Source: Capitulum mitella (taxonomy: Eukaryota; Arthropoda; Thecostraca; Pollicipedomorpha; Pollicipedidae). From it: a stretch of 64,000 nucleotides of DNA. Of this stretch, positions 10,892 to 48,211 are shown piece after piece. The stretch lies in the NCBI GenBank assembly GCA_030062745.1, contig CP099846.1, positions 27,053,201-27,117,200 of the forward strand. The letters run 5' to 3'. The translations under genes and the position numbers were made by a program. The stretch's first letter is position 1, and each line of letters starts with the position of its first letter. The notes under the pieces are model-generated. The model saw only the letters and a program-made list of their open reading frames with translations. It was not told where the DNA came from and did not search any database.

Positions 10892-11613
10892 GTGACGTCG
10901 TTGTCACGATCATAGACGGAGCGAAAGTCTTTTGGATTCTGTGGTGTTGTACCAGTAATTCGTGCGATAATGATGCCCTGGCTAGAAGAATAACATTATT
11001 TTTGTTTGCGTGTAGTGAGCCAGTGGCCTGTGGCAAAATATGGCGTTGTAAAAATGAATGAATGAAAAAACTAGACTTGTGAGGCAAACATGTTCAAAAC
11101 GATTATATGTCAATTATCATAAATGGTTTCCGTAATCTGCGAATCTAGCCAAGTGGTAATCCGAGTAGGCCCGGAGGCTTCGATAATACTGAAAATATAA
11201 AATGAGATTTAATTCTTCTCTCGGTGCAGTGGTTAAAAATAAGGGTGACAAAGTTATAGATAATGCATCTGGTCATGGGCCAGCAAACGGCATGTGGTTG
11301 TAACTGCCAGTATTTTTCGGATCGCCCTTGCTACTGCTGACTACATTCAGAATGTCACCTGTTGCAGAGATTAGCTGCACATAACTTCTTTATTTATGAC
11401 ATCTGCTGCAGCTGCATCATTCCATGGAACGGACAGTGGCTGCCCTTCTTTGGATCCTTCATGACCGGGCGAAGAAAATTTCACTTTTCTTACACATGAG
11501 TTGTTACCCTCTTTACATTACGTATCCGTCTTCATCCGTAATTAAATGCATATAGACATAATTATGCGTCCGTTAGTCACTCTCGTGTATTCAGACGATG
11601 CTCCATCCTTCAG

Positions 11614-12691
11614 GTACGAGGATGAAGATGAGTTCGTCGCCTATATCGTACAAGACGGGCACCACGGCGGCTACGGTGGCTACGGCGGCGGCCACGGAGG
11701 TTACGGCGGCGGCCACGGAGGCTACGGTGGCGGGCACGGAGGCTACGGAGGCTACGGCAGCCACGGTGGCTACGTCATTGAATACGTCGACGACGATGAC
11801 GGCGGCAAGGGTGGCAAGGGCTTTAAGGGTGGTAAGGGCGGTAAGGGTAAGGGCAAAGGCGGCGGCGGAAAGTCCATTACGCAGGTGCATCATTTCTACC
11901 ACTACCATCCGGCTCCGAGCTACGGCTACAAAAGCTACCAACCGCCGCCCCACGGATACAGGCACCAGTCGTATGGCGCTCCGGCACACAGCGCGCCGCA
12001 CCAGTCGTATGGCGCTCCGGCACACAGCGCGCCGCACCAGTCGTATGGCGCTCCGGCATACAGCGCGCCGCACCAGTCGTATGGCGCTCCGGCACACAGC
12101 GCGCCGCACCACGCGCATAGCACGCCAGCGAGCTACCACGCACCGAGCCCCGCCCACTCCGGAGGCGGACACAATGGCGGGTTCCACAGCTCCGGAGCGT
12201 ACCAGCAGAGCTTCGACGGGGCGGCCGGCCACCAGCAGGCGTTCGCTGGCGCGCCGGTCCACCAGGACACGTTTGTCGAGACGGTGAGCCACCAAGAGGC
12301 GCCTCTGCCGTCGGTGATCTCGCACGGAGGCCCGTCGCTGCTGCCGGTGAGCCACCAGCAGCGTGAGGTCACCATCTCCTCGGTCCAGCAGAGCGCACCG
12401 CTGGCCGTCGCCGGGCCGACGGTCGGCGTCTCCGAGTCGCTCTCCGCCGCGCGGCAGGTGGGCGGCTCCCTCTCCGCGGCGCCGGCGCCCGTCTTCCAGG
12501 ACGCGGGCGTCACCCACTCGTCCGTCTCGCAGTCCTCGTTCGGTCCCGCCACCTCCGGCGTCGTGTCGTCGCTCTCCGAGCCTGTGCTCGTCCGGACCAC
12601 CTCGTCCGTTTCCGACAGCCCCTCGCTCCCCGTCCTGGACGCCAGACCGAGGTACAGGTACGACACGCCGGCCAACCCGCTGACGCTGTAG
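11614..12691 (+). CDS. Exon 3: His/Gly/Tyr-rich repetitive structural (cuticle-like) protein, 396 aa in total
   Basis: The acceptor CATCCTTCAG precedes G-TAC, giving W-YEDEDEF across the junction. The mature chain has five zones. An acidic start is followed by Gly/Tyr/His repeats of GHGGYGG type (11664-11780). Next come the acidic YVIEYVDDDD and a Lys/Gly linker (11803-11874). The core VHHFYHYHPAPSY (about 11886-11924) follows, then four 12-residue repeats HQSYGAPAHSAP (11963-12106; the third has Y for H). A Ser/Val/Pro/Gln-rich tail ends at the TAG at 12689. No cysteine is seen in exon 3, and no enzyme domain. GC-rich codon use contrasts with the AT-rich flanks. Composition and the MKL exon suggest a secreted cuticle, fibre or adhesive protein; the function is inferred. 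The open frame extends upstream into intron, so the 11546 ATG is not the start. The gene converges on its relative at 18540-20090. Confidence 0.75.
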
Positions 12692-27474: not shown

Positions 27475-28180
27475 TGTATATACATGTATACATACATGTA
27501 TATGTACATATGAAGACCTCTCAAAAACTTGGCTTGGCTCCACCCCTGAGCAAAATGACATCATGGAAATCTGGCATGATACGTAGGAAGAATGGGTAGG
27601 AAACTCACCAGCTTTCGTAAAGCCATTTCAAGGACCCTGAAAATCGCGAGCAAAAAAGAAAAACGGAGGGGGATTCTGAAGCGGGAATAGGATAGAACGG
27701 AAGTAGAACTGAAAATAATGGACTAAACGATTTGGAATTACTGCCCAGAATCTTATTTCCCTGCACATCCTGGTCAGACTTTACAAAAGAGCAATTTTTT
27801 ACCGTCTCCAATGACGACATTGTTCTAAATTCACTGCCGATTTTATCCCTTTCGTCAGCTATTTCTTAGCAGGACCTCACAGTCTCTTTCATAGTAATGA
27901 GGCGCTTTTCCTGAATCCACACATAGACTCTCATTAATTATTTTTGAAATATTTCCTAGTGAGCAACTGCCTCATGGTTCAGAACAGCTTCGCACAACTG
28001 ACGCTTTGAGGCAAACCATTCAGCATGATCATGCTATCCAATTTATCCCGTGTAATAGGCTAATATTAATCGGTTCTCTCCAATCAGATGGTGTATCATG
28101 TGCGCCTTGCATCTTTCTGTATTCGAGTCACAGCCGCCACGACGGTTTTCGAAGCGAAATTATCGAGAAGCAAATGCATA
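27475..28180. other. Gene-free stretch
   Basis: It starts with a short ATGTATATAC-type tract (27470-27510). Otherwise no feature. Confidence 0.3.
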
Positions 28181-28275
28181 TGCCAGATAGTAGAATAAAA
28201 CTCTTCGTGCATCAGATACAGCGCAAAGAAACGTCCGTTAAGTACATGGTTTCAATGCACGTGAATAAAGAAGCC
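28181..28275 (+). repeat. Empty-site paralogue of the fold-back insertion site
   Basis: AGATAGTAGAATAAAA followed by a short spacer and CATCAGATACAGCGCAAAG. The same sequence is found split around the 6.7-kb element: AGATAGTAAAATAAAA at 28385-28399 and GTATCAGATACAGCACAAAG from about 35119. It therefore shows what the target looked like before insertion, with a single TAAAA (28196-28200). Confidence 0.6.
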
Positions 28276-28594
28276 CCAAAAAAGCAGAGGTTCCCAAAAG
28301 TATATGCCAGACATCCGCATGTTATACGCATATATAGTATATGCATGTCCTATGTACACGCAATATTTGCAGAAGGATACGTCAGATAGTAAAATAAAAT
28401 GATGTGTGTCAAGACAGCCCACGGTCAGCCCACGCTCAGCCCATAAAAGCGACCCCTCCAAAAGCGGCCAAAATGCACCATATGATGCATCTCGACGAGC
28501 TGAACACGATGGTGCAATTTAATGTTGGGTGCATCCAATACCTTAGCCTGCAGAGCCAATTATCAATCAAGGGGAGAGAGTTTCTCACTAATAT

Positions 28595-30475
28595 TCACAG
28601 CCGACTGCATATAGTCGAGTAGCATCTCAAACGACTCCCCGTGTCAAGCCGAGCTCAAAACTACCTGTTATGTATCAATATCTTTTCAACTTTTTGAGAA
28701 ACATGCATCCAGAACCGGTTTTTCACCTAATGCTTTATTTCCCATAGGCTTTAACATTGAGGGCAACGGTCGTGAATTGGCCGGCACCTACGATTTTTCT
28801 AATTTTTTGTGTATGGGTACCCTGACCAGGAACACACTGCCTGTCAGTGAAATTTGCCGGGTGCATTGATATTCTCACCGATTACAAGGGGTGAGAATTT
28901 CTCACTAAAATTCACAACCGACTGCATATAGTCGAGTAGCATCTCAAACGACTCCCCGTGTCAAGCCGAGCTCAAAACTACCTCTTATGTATCAATATCT
29001 TTTCAACTTTTTGAGAAACATGCATCCAGAACCGGTTTTTCACCTAATGCTTTATTTCCCATAGGCTTTAACATTGAGGGCAACGGTCGTGAATTGGCCG
29101 GCACCTACGATTTTTCTTATTTTTTGTGTATGGGTACCCTGACCAGGAGCACACTGCATGTCAGTGAAATTTGCCGGGTGCATTGATATTCTCACCGATT
29201 ACAAGGGGTGAGAATTTCTCACCGAAATTCACAACCGACTGCATATAGTCGAGTAGCATCTCAAACGACTCCCCGTGTCAAGCCGAGCTCAAAACTGCCT
29301 CTTGTTTATCAATATCTTTTCAACTTTTTGAGAAACATGCATCCAGAACCGGTTTTTCACCTAATGCTTTATTTCCCATAGGCTTTAACATTGAGGGCAA
29401 CGGTCGTGAATTGGCCGGCACCTACGATTTTTCTAATTTTTTGTGTATGGGTACCCTGACCAGGAACACACTGCCTGTCAGTGAAATTTGCCGGGTGCAT
29501 TGATATTCTCACCGATTACAAGGGGTGAGAATTTCTCACCGAAATTCACAACCGACTGCATATAGTCGAGTAGCATCTCAAACGACTCCCCGTGTCAAGC
29601 CGAGCTCAAAACTGCCTCTTGTTTATCAATATCTTTTCAACTTTTTGAGAAACATGCATCCAGAACCGGTTTTTCACCTAATGCTTTATTTCCCATAGGC
29701 TTTAACATTGAGGGCAACGGTCGTGAATTGGCCGGCACCTGCGATTTTTCTAATTTTTTGTTTATGGGTACCCTGACCAGGAACACACTGCCTGGCAGTG
29801 AAATTTGCCGGGTGCATTGATATTCTCACCGATTACAAGGGGTGAGAATTTCTCACCGAAATTCACAACCGACTGCATATAGTCGAATAGCATCTCAAAC
29901 GACTCCCCGTGTCAAGCCGAGCTCAAAACTACCTCTTGTTTATCAATATCTTTTCAACTTTTTGAGAAACATGCATCCAGAACCGGTTTTTCACCTAATG
30001 CTTTATTTCCCATAGGCTTTAACATTGAGGGCAACGGTCGTGAATTGGCCGGCACCTACGATTTTTCTAATTTTTTGTGTATGGGTACCCTGACCAGGAA
30101 CACACTGCCTGTCAGTGAAATTTGCCGGGTGCATTGATATTCTCACCGATTACAAGGGGTGAGAATTTCTCACCGAAATTCACAACCGACTGCATATAGT
30201 CGAGTAGCATCTCAAACGACTCCCCGTGTCAAGCCGAGCTCAAAACTGCCTCTTGTTTATCAATATCTTTTCAACTTTTTGAGAAACATGCATCCAGAAC
30301 CGGTTTTTCACCTAATGCTTTATTTCCCATAGGCTTTAACATTGAGGGCAACGGTCGTGAATTGGCCGGCACCTACGATTTTTCTAATTTTTCGTGTATG
30401 GGTATCCTGACCAGGAACACACTGCCTGGCAGTGAAATTTGCCGGGTGCATTGACATTCTCATTAATTACAAGGG
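28595..30475 (+). repeat. 317-bp satellite array, left arm
   Basis: The anchor TAGTCGAGTAGCATC falls at 28612, 28929, 29246, 29563, 29880 (one base changed) and 30197, exactly 317 bases apart. Units differ by only a few bases and contain no long open frame. A seventh, strongly diverged unit follows at about 30476-30770. Confidence 0.9.
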
Positions 30476-30770
30476 GTGGGAGTTTCTCCCGAAAACTCTG
30501 ATCGCTGTAAACGCTGTCAAACTCTCCGTGTGATGTTCAGCTCAAAACTATCTTTAGTTAATTTCTATTTTCTCGAGTTTTGTGTAACATGCATATCTAT
30601 TTGTTTTTTTCCACGTAATGGTGTATTTCCTGTAGGGTTTGTTAGCCATGTGTCCCCTTGTTGTGGGGGCATCGCGCGTGATTTGTCTGACTCCTAGGAT
30701 GTGCCTCTTTTTGTTATATAGGCGACTACTTGTCCGATTTATCAAAGAAAAACGTGTGTTTCGGTTAATT
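30476..30770 (+). repeat. Diverged innermost satellite unit
   Basis: It keeps landmarks of the 317-bp unit (GGGTGGGAGTTTCTC, AGCTCAAAACTATC, AACATGCAT, GTATTTCC) with many substitutions, unlike the near-identical outer units. Confidence 0.6.
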
Positions 30771-30789
30771 CTCATCACCTGAAATACTA

Positions 30790-33700
30790 ACTCGAAAACA
30801 TACGTATATTTATCTGGAAAACAATTGCATCTTTATACACCTGAAGCGAGGAATTACAATCTCACAGGGATCAAATGCTCGCGATAATATCATCCCTTTA
30901 GAACGACTATTGGGACAGGGTTCTGTAGCGCAAAATCGTTGGTCAAAATCCTGTAGGGCATCGGTACCATTACGGGTGATATTTAGATTTTTATCAGCCG
31001 TTCTCAACGTTCAATGTGAAACAAAGTGATGCATACAGCACAACACGCATGATGTAGAGCCAGTTGTTTCGCTGCTTGTTGTTGTTTATCGGTGTTTTCG
31101 GGCGCGCCGACTTCTGAGGTTAGTGTGCGCTTATAACGAGGTTGCTTTGCCTCACTAGTGAGGTGTGTAAAAAACATCGAAGTCAGCGTCTTTAAGAAAT
31201 AGAAAGAGCTGTTTCGATTCAAGAAAGCGCGAGTTGTCTCCAAGTACATCGCAGAGCGTCAGAGACGAAGCGTGCTGTCCGAAGTGAAGTCAACGTTTTT
31301 CAGCCAAGTATGGACACGAAAGGACCACGTGGTTAACAGTGAGGAAGGCACCACATCGATGGCAGAGAGGCCTACCAGCCCTAAGCAACAGATAACCATG
31401 GGTCGTATAAGTGACCGATACGCAGTCTGCACAGTGTTATTTCCTCTCGTCTCGCCTTGCGAGAGCAGGATAATCATGAACCAGGCTTGGGTTTTACCAT
31501 TGTGAGTTTATTGCCATCTGTGTCATCCCAAGAGCGCTGCCACTTGTTGTACAGGAAGTTCCTAATTGCCGGATAAAAGTCTCTGGCAAGATTGGCAGAG
31601 AACGTGTACATAGTGTCAGCGCTGCTCGCCTGGCAGCGGCATCGGTCAACTCGTTGTCCGTAATTCCGACGTGACTGGGTATCCAGCACAGGATGATTTT
31701 ATTCCCAGTCCGATCCAGTTGTGTCAGACGTAGTAAAATGTCCTCTAGAAGGAAACATGCTGAATACAAAGATCTAAGAGCAAAAAGGCTTCTAAGGGAA
31801 TCCGTTAAAATCAGGTATAGTGATTCCTCACCAACTTCGATGAAACATAACGCCTTGGTGATTGCTATCAATTCCGATGTAAAAACAGACGCGTGTGCAG
31901 GCAACAAGAACGATCGGGTGACAGAACCGCACACAAACGCACAACGAACACCACCGGCGGTCTCAGATCCGTCCATGTACGTCAGTGTGTATCCGCCATA
32001 TGACGCCATGCGCTCCAGCGCCCTGGATCCCATTATATTTGGCATGGCTTCATTCTTTCTAATTTCTGCAAGCAAGGTGTCTGTTGAAGGTGACGTCAAA
32101 TGCCAGGGAGGAGAAGGCAGATGGCTTATTCGTTTCACCCCTCGAAGAGGAATTTCGCACTCCTGCAACAGAGCTCGCATTCGGAAGCCGAAAGGCGGAG
32201 TGCGCTGCTGCGATCCACCGCGAAGGAAGCTCACAGTGGACCGTGAAAAACCTGCGTCATACGTCGGGTGTAACGGGAATTGTCGCAGCTTCAGGGGATA
32301 GCGCATGCCGAGCATTTTCCTCCTCGTCGACAGTGGCGACTCGTGTGACTCTGCCATAAGGCTAACAGTGGGTGATGTGCGGAAGGCCCCTGTGATGATG
32401 CGGAGGGCGGAGTGATGGATGGTGTCTAGAATGCACTTGCTGGATCACATGCGCTGTCATACACAAAACATGCATCATCTAGCTTGGAGCGGACGAGAGA
32501 ACGATATCACAGCATTGTGCGTGACACACATTTTAATATGTTCAGAGACTTAAAACAGCGATCGCTTAAAGTTTCCAGATGTGCATTATACGTAATGCGG
32601 CGGTCAAAATATACCCCGAGATATCTAGCCACAGACTCTGTTGGAATGCACTGTCCATACAAAAGGAGAGTCATTTCACCGTATCGCCAGCGACGAAGAA
32701 GATGCATGGCTACGGTCTTATTTTTTGAAAAACTGAACCCATTCATGGTGCTCCACCTCTCCACGCGGTCCACAGCCAGCTGGAGATGCCGTTCCATTGA
32801 TGGTGCTCTTACTGCACTCGTCCAAATGGTAAAAACATCAACAAAAAGAGCACGGCCAACAGACTGGGGGAGCACATCACCGATGTCGTTTATCATAACT
32901 GCGAATAACGCTGCACTTAACACACCGCCTTGGGGTACAACGTTTATTTGTGGGAACTTTTCGGAGAGTGTGTTTCCAACACGGACACGGAAAAAACGGT
33001 CAGCTAAAAAGCGTCGAAGAAAAGTACTCATACGACCACGTTTACCATATCTAAACAGCTTTACAAGAATACCATGAAACCAAGTGGCGTCGTAGGCGCC
33101 CTCAGTGTCAAAGAAGACTGTGCCTATATGCCTGATCGCTTTAAAAACCGGTACGAATCATAGTGTCTAGAGCTATAAGATGGTCCACTGTGTCCGGTTC
33201 TTTCTAAAACCGCACTGCGCGTTAGTAAAAAACGTGATGCTGTTCAAAAAAAGGTCAATCGTGCGTTCACCATCTTTTCCATCAGTTTACAAAATGATGA
33301 CGTAAGAGAAATGGGTCTGTAGTGAAGAGGATCTAATCCACTTTTGCCTGGTTTCAGAAGTGAAACTATCACAGCTTCTCGCCAAACAGCTGGGAATTCA
33401 TCTCTTAACCACAATGAGTTAAAATCCACCAAAAGCACGCGAAGTATGCAGGGCGGCAGATGTCTGAGCATGTCGTTGCGTATGGTATCAGGGCCTTCTG
33501 ACACACTGCGAAGCTTGACAATTGCCGATTCCAACTCCATCAAAGTGAATGGCTCATTGTATGCCTGCGATTCACTCGTGGAAAAATCTATCACTGTTTG
33601 CTCACATCGTGCTCTGTGCCGTAAGAACTGTGGGTTCGTGTTACCACCTTTGCTACGGTGTGACAAGGCTTGTGCAATCTCGTTAGCCACATCCAATGGC

Positions 33701-33940
33701 TGCGTCACAGTCTGGCCGTCTAAACGTAGCACAGGAAGCGGCACGGATGAAAACTGCCCAGAAACACACTTGTTCCGCGCCCAGATCTGCGAAGTTGGCG
33801 TAAATCGGTTGAGCGTGTTACCTACGCACGCCAGGAAATACGTTTCGCTTCCCTTATCGTGCGCTGAGCTAAAGCTCTCCCCTTCTTGAAGGCTATCAGG
33901 TTCTCCATGCGACTCCTGACGTCAAAAGCACGGAATGGGC
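30790..33940 (-). pseudogene. Jockey/I-type LINE with reverse transcriptase, RNase H and zinc finger, inactivated
   Basis: On the minus strand, 33900-33244 encodes the start of the reverse transcriptase (SEGPDTIRNDMLRHLP, YRPISLTSSFCKLMEKMV). After stops at 33240-33040 the palm continues (QGGVLSAALFAVMINDIGD). The catalytic box reads FVDV, where F/Y-x-D-D is needed, so the second Asp is lost. The RNase H domain at about 32000-31600 keeps its acidic residues (YMDGSE, SELIAI, LTDSL, SHVGITDNELTD). A C-terminal CHRCGAFLTVNHVVLSCP knuckle lies near 31380-31310. Several frameshifts and stops confirm decay. The 5' end stops exactly where satellite sequence begins at 33941. The 3' border is approximate. 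Confidence 0.8.
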
Positions 33941-34920
33941 GTCGGTTGTGAATTTTAGTGAGAAATTCTCACCCCTTGTAATCGGTGAGAATATCAATGC
34001 ACCCGGCAAATTTCACTGACAGGCAGTGTGTTCCTGGTCAGGGTACCCATACACAAAAAATTAGAAAAATCGTAGGTGCCGGCCAATTCACGACCGTTGC
34101 CCTCAATGTTAAAGCCTATGGGAAATAAAGCATTAGGTGAAAAACCAGTCCTGGATGCATGTTTCTCAAAAAGTTGAAAAGATATTGATACATAAGAGGT
34201 AGTTTTGAGCTCGGCTTGACACGGGGAGTCGTTTGAGATGCTACTCGACTATATGCAGTCGGTTGTGAATTTTAGTGAGAAATTCTCACCCCTTGTAATC
34301 GGTGAGAATATCAATGCACCCGGCAAATTTCACTGACAGGCAGTGTGTTCCTGGTCAGGGTACCCATAAACAAAAAATTAGAAAAATCGTAGGTGCCGGC
34401 CAATTCACGACCGTTGCCCTCAATGTTAAAGCCTATGGGAAATAAAGCATTAGGTGAAAAACCGGTTCTGGATGCATGTTTCTCAAAAAGTTGAAAAGAT
34501 ATTGATAAACAAGAGGTAGTTTTGAGCTCGGCTTGACACGGGGAGTCGTTTGAGATGCTACTCGACTATATGCAGTCGGTTGTGAATTTTAGTGAGAAAT
34601 TCTCACCCCTTGTAATCGGTGAAAATATCAATGCACCCGGCAAATTTCACTGCCAGGCAGTGTGTTCCTGGTCAGGGTACCCATACACAAAAAATTAGAA
34701 AAATCGTAGGTGCCGGCCAATTCACGACCGTTGCCCTCAATGTTAAAGCCTATGGGAAATAAAGCATTAGGTGAAAAACCGGTTCTGGATGCATGTTTCT
34801 CAAAAAGTTGAAAAGATATTGATAAACAAGAGGTAGTTTTGAGCTCGGCTTGACACGGGGAGTCGTTTGAGATGCTACTCGACTATATGCAGTCGGCTGT
34901 GAATATTAGTGAGAAACTCT
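33941..34920 (-). repeat. 317-bp satellite array, right arm (inverted)
   Basis: The inverted anchor CTCGACTATATGCAGTCGG occurs at 34244, 34561 and 34878, again 317 bases apart. Units match the left arm closely. Confidence 0.9.
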
Positions 34921-35113
34921 CACCCCTTGATTGATAATTGGCTCTGCAGGCTAAGGTATTGGATGCACCCAACATTAAATTGCACCATCGTGTTCAGCTC
35001 GTCGAGATGCATCATATGGTGCATTTTGGCCGCTTTTGGAGGGGTCGCTTTTATGGGCTGAGCGTGGGCTGAGCGTGGGCTGACCGTGGGCTGTCTTGAC
35101 ACACATCATAAAA

Positions 35114-37130
35114 TGCTAGTTGTATCAGATACAGCACAAAGAAACGCCAGTGAAATACGTGGTTTCAGTAGGTATGAATAAAAAACTGCAATAGTAGAGA
35201 TATCCTAACTTACTCTACACAAATTCAGGTTGTGGAATGGAAGGGGAGGGTACATGTACAATGTAATGTCGGTAGTGCGCCCATGCCTGGAACATTCTAC
35301 AACTGGTAAGTCATAACTCATATCACCACTTTCTGTTCTGATTTTTTCTGATGCTAAGTAGGAAGTTATTTATTTGCGATACTGTCGGAGACTTTGTCAC
35401 ACTTTTCTGTCTTTAGTGGCTAAATCCCTTCATTGCAACTGATACTCTCTTTGCTAATCTTTTAATTCTAGCCATAATTGATTTCATATCCAAATCACAT
35501 CAATCTCCCGACTACTTATGACTACCCGAATATAAATGACATCATACTTTTGCAATAATCTGCCCTTTATCCATGTAAAACACACGCCTGAATCCTTTGT
35601 TTCAAATACGAAAAATGCGTGGTCCATGTTAACACGCTTATCTTGGTTCGGTAATCTAACAGACCTGGCCGTTACGAAGTCGAGCCTTGCAATAAAACAA
35701 CGCCACCTGGTGAGCATCAGTAGCGCTATCTGTTGCCCGGCGTCCGAGCTGAGACGCAGTTCAGCACTGGTAGCCGCCGCCGAGCCACGGATCCACCACG
35801 TGCCTTCTCGACGTCGAGCAGCCCTGTCTGCCTCCGAAACCCCGTCTTGCCAGCGCGCGCGAAGTGTCGCCCAAACCTCTCTCCCTCATTCCGGAGCTAC
35901 GATATGGTGCGGACTGGCCACAGGAGATGCAACCAGCACCAAATTAATCCACACATTCGCAAGCTAATCACCGCCCGGAGTCTGTCCTGTCTCACCGACA
36001 GCCTGCTGTATTCTGCCCAACCATTGGGAACGAAATTAATTAAACCAGCTATGTGAAGTCGCTTCTAATATCCGCGTCTGGCAGTGATATATATGCAGCT
36101 CTCTTCCGCTCTCCGCCTCCTTGAGAGCATACCAAGTCGCCTGATTTCCATAATCTGGGCAAAGGGACGGCTAGTTATCTTTTTTTAGAGTCGTGGACGT
36201 CAGATCATCCATCCATCGGATTGGCATGCAGGGGATATTTGAATAAATCTCAGCTCGCATTGGTATGTAATTCATGACCTGGATACTAGAACAGCCCCTG
36301 AAAATGAAGAGATATGACACCGGTGACGCTCAGAATAAACAATAGTTTTAGGTATGTTTTACTATTTTGTTGCTTTTGTTATTTTATTTTTTTGATTCTT
36401 CTAATCCCTTGACTGGCACTGTGGCCCGATTTACGTCATTTCTTTTGCTCCAAGCCTTCGCGTGCCTCGCATGTTGCGTCATTTAAATGCAAGGAAAAAA
36501 CAAACGTCATATGACATGATACCTTGCAGCTTCGCAAAAACCTCAAGCGCGAATATGCAACAAATACTTAATTTTAGGGAACCCATCATATTTCCCTATG
36601 GTGCAAACCAGAAGGTACGGACTTTTCAGAAGATTGTGATTTACATATTACAACATAACTCAAATGGACTACAGCAAGTTAAGACACCGTTTTTCATTTC
36701 ATTTCATTCATTTCGCCGAAATCAGCTCCTAAACGGTTTCCGTTTAGATAAACAAAAGAAATATCTTCGACAGAGGACAAATGGAATCCGCAAAAAAAGC
36801 AAAAAGGCCATGAAAAGTGTAATAAGCTCTTTGCAAAATTAATCAATTATACTAGACGGCAAAAGAGTAGCTGCTTTTAAAACATACGTCCAATTTGTGA
36901 TGTAGATAAAAAGTGCGAAGCAATCATATTTTTCTTCAAGCTTTTTCACGCACGGCTGTCGGCCCACGCTTGTTGTATACCACATTGATCAAATCCGAGG
37001 AGGAACCGCCAGAAAATTTCCACGGCAACAGTGCTGTGAAGCATCTGTGTCGAAATGACGAAGAGAGGGCTGCTTCTCTCGCATAGTCACATAGCCGAGC
37101 ACTGGCACGTACAATTGATTTCCGACCCAG
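35114..37130. other. Gene-free stretch
   Basis: The first 70 bases are the resumed target-site sequence. Open frames at 35536-36056 and 36462-36842 show no recognised motif. Confidence 0.3.
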
Positions 37131-46640: not shown

Positions 46641-47942
46641 GGGGAGCTGGATTTCGGACTAGGTGGGAGGGCGGTTTTTCAATTTCGACACGGCGAATCC
46701 CGATGTTTCCAATGGCAAACGACTGTCTGATGGTAGGTTTCATCTGTGAGAAGACGTCTGAGATCGTGTGAAAAGTTCTGAACAGTTTGACTGTACCCTG
46801 CTTCTGGCAGCGCAGATTCATGCGTTGCCCGTAATACAGTCTGCCAGTTGACGCGAGCTAGCATTTCCCTCACAGCCACTGTGCGCCGTTCATCTACAAC
46901 GCATCTTTTGAATGCACGGAGAGGAGGCCATAAGCCACTTTTTCCCTTACAACGGCAAAACGTTCCTGACATGCCTCTTTCTAACGACACGCGTGCTTTA
47001 ACTTACGCTTACGCTTACGCGTCTTAACGACGGCGCCGCAGTGAACGCATACCCGCAGCGAGGTGCCAAAGTGGCCAAACCAGTGCTGCGCCGGGCTCAT
47101 CTCTGGCCTGTGAATGTCATCTCGGCTGGCTGTTCACCGTGATTTGACCTGGCGTCAACGGCCGGGACGGAGTTCAGAACAGTGTCACGTGGACAAGCGG
47201 AACGTGAAAGGTCGCGCGACGCCTCCGGTCCTCAGCTTCAACTCATTAGCTTTAAATGTCAGGAAACTTACGGAGGTCAGAGCTAATCTCAGATAGGCCT
47301 TGCCTTCAAAGGCACTTCATAAGATTCGAGTTCAACTCTGAATGGTCGCATTCCGTGAGGTTCATAGTCCTGCGTCCGGTGCAGAAGTGGCAAGGAAAAT
47401 GACGTGAATTAACTCGACTTCGTGAACACTACCAATTTCCAAATGGTTACGCAACGCTGGAACGATGTTGGGTAGCAGGAATACAAACGAAGGTCCGTCT
47501 GATTTCGCAACAGAGGGGAACTAACGCACATGAACTGGACTGTGTTCAGACGCTGCTACAAATCACTGTCGAAGAAAGATATAAAGAAGGCTGTTTTCAT
47601 GATCAAGTCAAAAGCTCGGAAGCCGATAAAGACCATTTTCGACTTAAACGAGTAGCAGATGATGCCTTGATACGAAGTACCAAAGGAAACAACACGACCA
47701 TCCAACACTGACACCGCCACCGACCGGTACAACCGGCCAGTCGTCCCTCCCGCAGCACCTCGTCGCATGAGAGGGGACGGCGGGACCGAGCCCACTGGCA
47801 CCGTCTCAGAGAGCCGGGTCCCAGCGATCACTCTCCGTATTCGACGCCGGCCGATCGCAGACTGAGTCATCGGAGACGACGGCCGAGTTTTCCGAACCGG
47901 ACGCCGGTCAGCGATCAATCTCCGCGCGAAGGAGCGAACCGC
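46641..47942. other. Gene-free stretch
   Basis: A short CTTACG tandem (near 47004-47019) is the only structure noted. It becomes GC-rich from about 47700 towards the minisatellite. Confidence 0.3.
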
Positions 47943-48211
47943 GTCGCTCTGGAGCTATAGCCCAGCCAGTCAGCGGGAGCCGGACGTGTCGCTCTGGAGC
48001 TATAGCCCAGCCAGTCAGCGGGGCGAACCGTGTCGCTCTGGAGCTATAGCCCAGCCAGTCAGCGGGAGCCGGACGTGTCGCTCTGGAGCTGTAGCCCAGC
48101 CAGTCAGCGGGAGCCGGACGTGTCGCTCTGGAGCTATAGCCCAGCCAGTCAGCGGGAGCCGGACCGTGTCACTCTGGAGCTATAGCCCAGCCAGTCAGCG
48201 GGAGTCGAGCG
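47943..48211 (+). repeat. 45-bp minisatellite, six units
   Basis: Units start with GTCGCTCTGGAGCTATAGCC at 47943, 47988, 48032, 48077, 48122 and 48168 (the last with one change). Lengths are 44-46 bp, so the reading frame shifts between some units. A frame stays open to 48414 across it, but the frame change between units argues against selection for protein. Confidence 0.85.

Follow-up and report, generated by a model that had tools for sequence, protein, structure and literature searches.

The window analysed here, a stretch of 64,000 nucleotides from Capitulum mitella, contains a complete foldback element that carries a piece of a non-LTR retrotransposon (LINE) between inverted arms of tandemly repeated 317-bp units (Table 1). 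Repeat finding recovers the inverted arms as 1142 nt (28415-29556 against 33941-35082) that are 98% complementary, and TRF counts 6.1 copies of the unit in the left array (97% matches) and 3.1 in the right (98% matches), with 0 indels in either. The inverse arrangement of six versus three units described in the initial annotation is thereby confirmed, as is the near-identity of the 190-bp termini: the outermost 190 bp on the left and 201 bp on the right are identical in 189 of 201 columns, the remainder being a single substitution and an 11-bp repeat present once more at the right. As expected of the foldback class, the arms are long, inverted and tandemly repeated with unequal unit numbers at the two ends, and dispersed copies exist, each with a target duplication (20 of 20). 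The locus holds a real, recently active and non-autonomous foldback element with tandem-satellite-like arms, in which no transposase-like frame was found. Elsewhere in the window, a Gly/His/Tyr-rich frame of 381 aa (11546-12691), in which 36-bp repeats, four in tandem, encode HQSYGAPAHSAP-like units, resembles by eye an arthropod cuticle or structural protein, and a minisatellite of 45/89-bp units, 94% alike, occupies 47931-48204.

Table 1. The foldback element and its surroundings, in window positions.
Feature	Position	Strand	Remark
Complete foldback element, LINE-carrying non-autonomous subfamily, 6705 bp	28402-35106		Ends by 20 copies; target-site duplication and empty site
Left target-site duplication AATAAAATG	28393-28401	+	8/9 identical to the right one
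Right target-site duplication CATAAAATG	35107-35115	+	Pairs with the left one, 8/9
Left terminal domain, 166 bp, ATGTGTGTCAAGACAGCCCA end	28402-28567	+	11-bp subterminal repeats 28415-28443
Left arm array of 317-bp units (six, plus a short partial one)	28568-30494	+	
Remaining element interior	30495-31078	+	
Degenerate (72%) unit piece inside the interior	30521-30581		
Captured, frame-broken non-LTR retrotransposon piece	31079-33939	-	3' end near 31075-31082; followed by search to 33900
RNase H frame of the captured LINE piece	31494-32444	-	
Reverse transcriptase frame of the captured LINE piece	32507-33157	-	
Right arm array of 317-bp units (three, inverted)	33941-34929	-	
Right terminal domain, 177 bp	34930-35106	-	11-bp repeats 35054-35093, one more than left
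Paralogous empty site, a diverged repeat of the interrupted sequence	28170-28272	+	Alignment of the joined flanks

Where exactly does the element end? The initial annotation had proposed a TGATGTGTG terminus flanked by a 5-bp TAAAA duplication. Comparison of 20 copies rejects both, placing the end at ATGTGTGTCAA, i.e. ATGTGTGTCAAGACAGCCCA, and finding identical 5-bp flanks at the aligned ends in none of the 20. The earlier end lay two bases too far out because in the window copy the left duplication finishes in TG and the right one starts with CA, which prolongs the inverted repeat; the proposed TAAAA sits within the true duplication, AATAAAATG. This duplication is 9-10 bp long, with all 20 copies matching at no fewer than 8 of 9 or 9 of 10 positions, a level attained by 0 of 380 cross-pairings of flanks between elements. 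Its length is 9 bp in 17 copies (14 perfect, 3 with 8/9, the window copy among these) and 10 bp in 3 (2 perfect, 1 with 9/10). The joined flanks of the window copy align across the junction with the upstream empty site at a score of 83, the best of 200 shuffles scoring 28 and the pieces singly 32 (left) and 62 (right). The empty site and positions 35108-35185 constitute a diverged direct repeat flanking the element, so that the target was itself a duplicated sequence.

The genome searched was the window's own (477 Mb, 16 contigs). With the first 301 bases of the element as query, the best 40 of 284 candidates were scored, and the 40 full-length matches fall without remainder into 20 plus/minus pairs, the members of a pair lying 5.0-13.3 kb apart; these are the copies read, the window copy and 19 others. 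A genome-wide search for further copies with target duplications, as suggested in the initial annotation, is positive, and one subfamily has at least 20 complete copies of two ages in one chromosome-scale genome. The 20-base terminus is found with up to 3 mismatches at 183 + 187 places genome-wide and its reversed control at 13 + 12, that is, about 370 family termini versus 25. The termini comprise two end types, ATGTGTG and ATGTCTG, the latter present at 37 + 43 exact places. At C3:8108581-8108634 a terminus of the one end type and an inverted one of the other stand 54 bp apart, perhaps a minimal deletion product.

The arms are separated by an interior common to the 20 copies, each copy lying at a mean distance of 0.97-3.05% from the rest. 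Copy C14_2.62 is without about 0.4 kb of it; copy C5_30.50 (L013, C5:30503334-30510907) holds about 1.2 kb of additional interior DNA, a probable further nested insertion. Most of the interior is a broken non-LTR retrotransposon on the minus strand, whose reverse transcriptase (PF00078, E 5.2e-15) and RNase H (PF00075, E 1.3e-5, barely at its cut-off) lie in separate frames. When positions 31000-33900 were searched genome-wide, with the best 40 of 476 candidates scored, the matches comprised the 20 copies and 12 further copies that start at query base 1 or 2 and so include the element-derived edge too. Among the candidates scored, eight other places at 85-89% identity start at query 76-83, three of them via a second piece, in two cases in opposite orientation; this start places the 3' end of the LINE near window 31075-31082, and by their sequence the eight look like free LINE copies. 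The element-derived query 30600-31070 (best 40 of 50 candidates scored) is also present in eight places at 75-92% identity, e.g. C10:2988140 and C6:11110153, which are absent among the LINE matches listed and likely lack the LINE. The simplest reading is that the LINE inserted into one element lineage and has been carried along since. The interior, now coding-dead, would have received it in that lineage, and the fragment would then have multiplied as passive cargo, partly in a recent burst.

What could move such an element? Ten other places with paired termini were read, in whole or over the interior. One (L039) is a further LINE-carrying copy; four (L040, L041, L042, L044) have a common coding region that is missing from the window copy; three (L043, L047, L048) still show, by eye, some of the gene's repetitive linker or of other interior sequence and look like deletion derivatives; and in L045 and L046 no such remnant was seen by eye. 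A genome search with 250 residues of the coding region gave 76 matches, in two of which (L050 and L051) a frame of 1181 aa is uninterrupted. This transposase-like frame ends in a Ulp1/C48 protease, core and protease forming one frame; in the intact frame of L051 the second D of the motif set is an N. All 14 matches of at least 90% identity over at least 190 residues lie within 10 kb of one or more exact family termini, and for 10 of them both ends are present. The element around L050 (C3:26141403-26151323, 9921 bp) has ends of the ATGTCTG type and is flanked by a perfect 9-bp duplication; its arms are made of tandem 329-bp units, of which the 1.7 kb read contains 5.1 copies. Among six further members with both ends read, L050 included, five have a perfect 9-bp duplication; L046 has paired ends, at which no duplication was found. 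The initial annotation had proposed searching for a partner that encodes a transposase between the same ends, and such relatives exist, their ends differing in the intact case by 1 base in 20; they are likely the partner. No element with both 317-bp arms and an intact transposase was seen. Further transposase lineages, L055 (C14:1530900), L056 (C13:13576270), L057 (C5:3914360), L061 and L062, are 32-45% identical to the partner, and several have long open frames of up to 1167 aa, so that such transposons are diverse in the host.

The initial annotation could name no superfamily. With the 9-10 bp duplication and the partner protein to hand, one can be named: several weak but agreeing lines place the family probably in or near the Mutator (MULE) superfamily. 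In MULEs the DNA-binding zinc finger is of the WRKY/GCM1 type. Structural matches of two AlphaFold models are to ISCth4 and WRKY, all at Z <8, a range in which a common arrangement alone may explain them entirely; neither model is confident (mean pLDDT 53). MULE is the sole Pfam family matched, weakly, in three relatives. The superfamily is described as having target duplications of 8-11 bp (PMC6446971), and those found here are of 9-10 bp in 20 of 20 copies. Zinc-finger types including FLYWCH and SWIM are tabulated for MULEs in the same source (PMC6446971). The MULE transposase domain PF10551 has no match in the partner or in lineages L056, L057 and L061; a genome search with it finds 6 loci (L033-L038), none coinciding with places among the 250-residue matches listed, and comparing profiles with those of two PF10551-positive proteins from these loci gave no support (probability 0.3%). 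Foldseek at E<=0.001 returned nothing from the PDB for the first model or from BFVD for the second, a PDB sequence search gave two ribosomal L18 matches (E 0.6-0.9), and none of 26 pattern matches in viral contigs was confirmed as a relative.

Could the foldback element belong to another superfamily, being P/Galileo-like, Transib-like (with 5-bp duplications), KDZ or unclassified? The P superfamily has a P-type transposase with a THAP domain and duplications of 7-8 bp; membership was rejected on the 9-10 bp duplication and on the want of a THAP or P-type Pfam match. In favour of another superfamily, the partner protein has no Pfam transposase match of its own, and the foldback arms of Galileo are described as containing tandem repeats of ~210 bp, up to three in Galileo F (PMC3573991). 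The likeness to Foldback and Galileo drawn in the initial annotation holds for the tandem-repeat foldback arms; Galileo, however, is described as encoding a P-superfamily transposase, which makes that parallel a structural one only (PMC3573991). We consider another superfamily distinctly improbable: against it stand the uniform 9-10 bp duplications and the lack of any 5-bp one, MULE as the sole Pfam family in the three relatives, if weakly, the ISCth4 and WRKY resemblances at Z <8, and the absence of P, THAP and KDZ models from the Pfam matches.

Do the arms belong to the transposon, or did it pick up a satellite? A 24-base tag of the 317-bp unit occurs at 272 exact places genome-wide, 229 of them inside the 20 elements. 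The 100 places listed divide into 88 in these elements, 8 between other paired termini and 4 in a solo arm. In the present assembly the repeat accordingly behaves like a transposon component, not a free satellite, and no long free array outside elements is found among the 100 of 272 places listed. The solo arm (L063, C4:30471000-30473400) is broken and degenerate, with about four units near an odd A-rich sequence, and the inner 23 bp alone of its terminal domain are recognisable. The suggestion in the initial annotation that the element is a way for a satellite to move and spread survives insofar as the repeat moves and changes length with the element; a long free array does not appear among the places listed. 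Units of the two end types (317 versus 329 bp) are mostly diverged, with local identity peaking at a common 45-bp core (84%), and a 28-base core pattern with up to 1 mismatch occurs at 611 places, its reversed control at 0. That a free 317-bp satellite came first, was captured at both transposon ends and was then dispersed is a scenario to which we give very little credence: the arms resemble ordinary satellite arrays of up to 20 units, but 229 of 272 exact tags fall in the 20 elements, only the 4 of the broken solo arm among the 100 places listed are not between exact paired termini, and the arms of the intact-gene relative have the same core at a similar period, which makes the array the transposon's own. 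Least tenable of all, and practically negligible, is an assembly artefact or a simple large inverted duplication in place of a mobile element, for although such inverted repeat arrays are difficult for assemblers, the 20 copies are dispersed over different sites, every one with a target duplication of its own, and a paralogous empty site is present.

The arrays change quickly. Arms of the 20 copies contain about 1-20 units, the longest (about 6.6 kb) being in C11_16.88, and arm length can change by up to 11 units where the interior has hardly changed: C3_8.39 and C16_12.29 are separated by 3 substitutions over 3418 interior sites, yet one of the arms has about 12 versus 1 units. Young copies (n=13, nearest neighbour <1%) hold 7.3-30.2 units in total and the 7 older ones 4.3-6.4, a count of 5.4 being used for C14_2.62. 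Arm length and age are related at Spearman -0.72 (mean distance) and -0.61 (nearest distance), tree structure uncorrected. Within the groups no relation with distance appears (young, n=13, -0.17, p 0.58; old, n=7, 0.18, p 0.70), so that this is one contrast between two groups and not a trend. In an alignment of 218 full-length units of about 257, unit haplotypes form repeated blocks within some arms, and units of the same arm differ by a mean of 2.1% versus 2.5% for units of other elements, in young elements only. Arm-to-arm homogenisation within an element gave a permutation p of 0.016 for the 20 copies and 0.30 for the 13 young ones and is not claimed. These unit-number changes fit expansion and contraction during or soon after transposition, with gap repair and unequal exchange both compatible.

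How do known systems compare? Kaonashi-type plant MULEs are Mutator-like elements with a Ulp1/C48 protease; their hosts are plants, whereas here the host is an animal and the protease is C-terminal in the transposase-core frame. A limited literature search, of titles and abstract openings, met no animal foldback MULE with a Ulp1 domain. Drosophila Foldback (FB) makes 9-bp target duplications, and FB/NOF and Galileo resemble the present element in their long, internally repetitive inverted arms of unequal length, a likeness of architecture. The closest described system is Tetris of Drosophila virilis and D. americana, whose foldback arms are likewise described as a terminal domain, variable tandem repeats and an inner domain, with repeats of ~220 bp, duplications of 8-10 bp and a suggested Mutator affiliation (PMC4079207). 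In that account Tetris has 3 structurally complete copies and no autonomous partner was found, against 20 complete copies read and a likely partner here, and its repeats also occur, through amplification, as free satellite arrays with as many as 66 copies, whereas here no free long array was seen; the 317-bp unit and the LINE cargo set our element apart from Tetris as described. A stretch common to terminal domain and unit, such as the 37 bp of Tetris, is not clear here (best local score 17). The Tm1 Mutator/Foldback family of root-knot nematodes is reported with mostly 9-bp duplications, many non-autonomous copies, arms of 1-9 tandem motifs in unequal number at the two ends, and one member with a Phantom-like transposase, a 496-aa protein; its motif is of ~14 bp, compared with 317 bp here, and the description cited mentions no C48 domain (PMC3169594). 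Rehavkus (9 bp) and Phantom (8-10 bp) are listed with similar duplications and with arthropods among their hosts, and a minisatellite near the transposase or 3' end is noted for Rehavkus and aphid Phantom; Rehavkus, likened to our element by its description, differs in having inverted repeats of 26-400 bp and a PHD finger (PMC6446971), a domain for which a Pfam scan of the 1181-aa frame gave no match. In a 2026 survey arthropod MULEs are given terminal inverted repeats of 13-1193 bp, compared with arms of up to about 6.6 kb here (PMC13359780).

Taken together, we consider it very likely that the window element, a foldback transposon, is a non-autonomous member of a Mutator-like (MULE) family and is moved by the transposase of longer relatives, with labile arrays owned by the family and a LINE as cargo. 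The transposase of relatives with nearly the same terminus would excise the element and insert it elsewhere, acting in trans on the window subfamily, and each insertion would make the 9-10 bp target duplication. The arm arrays of the ~317-bp unit would belong to the transposon family, whose intact-gene relative has a diverged ~329-bp unit with the conserved 45-bp core, and this core may be a transposase-binding site or promoter. Whole units would be gained and lost fast, most likely through unequal exchange, slippage or template switching in the repair of the transposition gap. A bolder, and in our estimation rather unlikely, extension is that the arms expand by themselves and are under selection as an array: the ~320-bp unit, conserved 45-bp core included, would be a multiplied transposase-binding or promoter site, its period of 317-329 bp (about two nucleosomes) would be held while the rest diverges, length would be rewritten at nearly every transposition, and longer arrays would transpose better.

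Foldback elements of this kind are known, and the proposal that satellite DNA may arise in those with satellite-like arms has been made on the example of Tetris (PMC4079207). The new value here lies in a large copy set and a likely partner in one genome, which make array growth, its tie to transposition and the mobility of longer arms measurable. A cut-and-paste element is also seen to multiply a dead LINE. If the self-expanding array were real, the recent long-armed burst in Capitulum mitella would represent within-genome selection on array length, and with it the live birth of a satellite.
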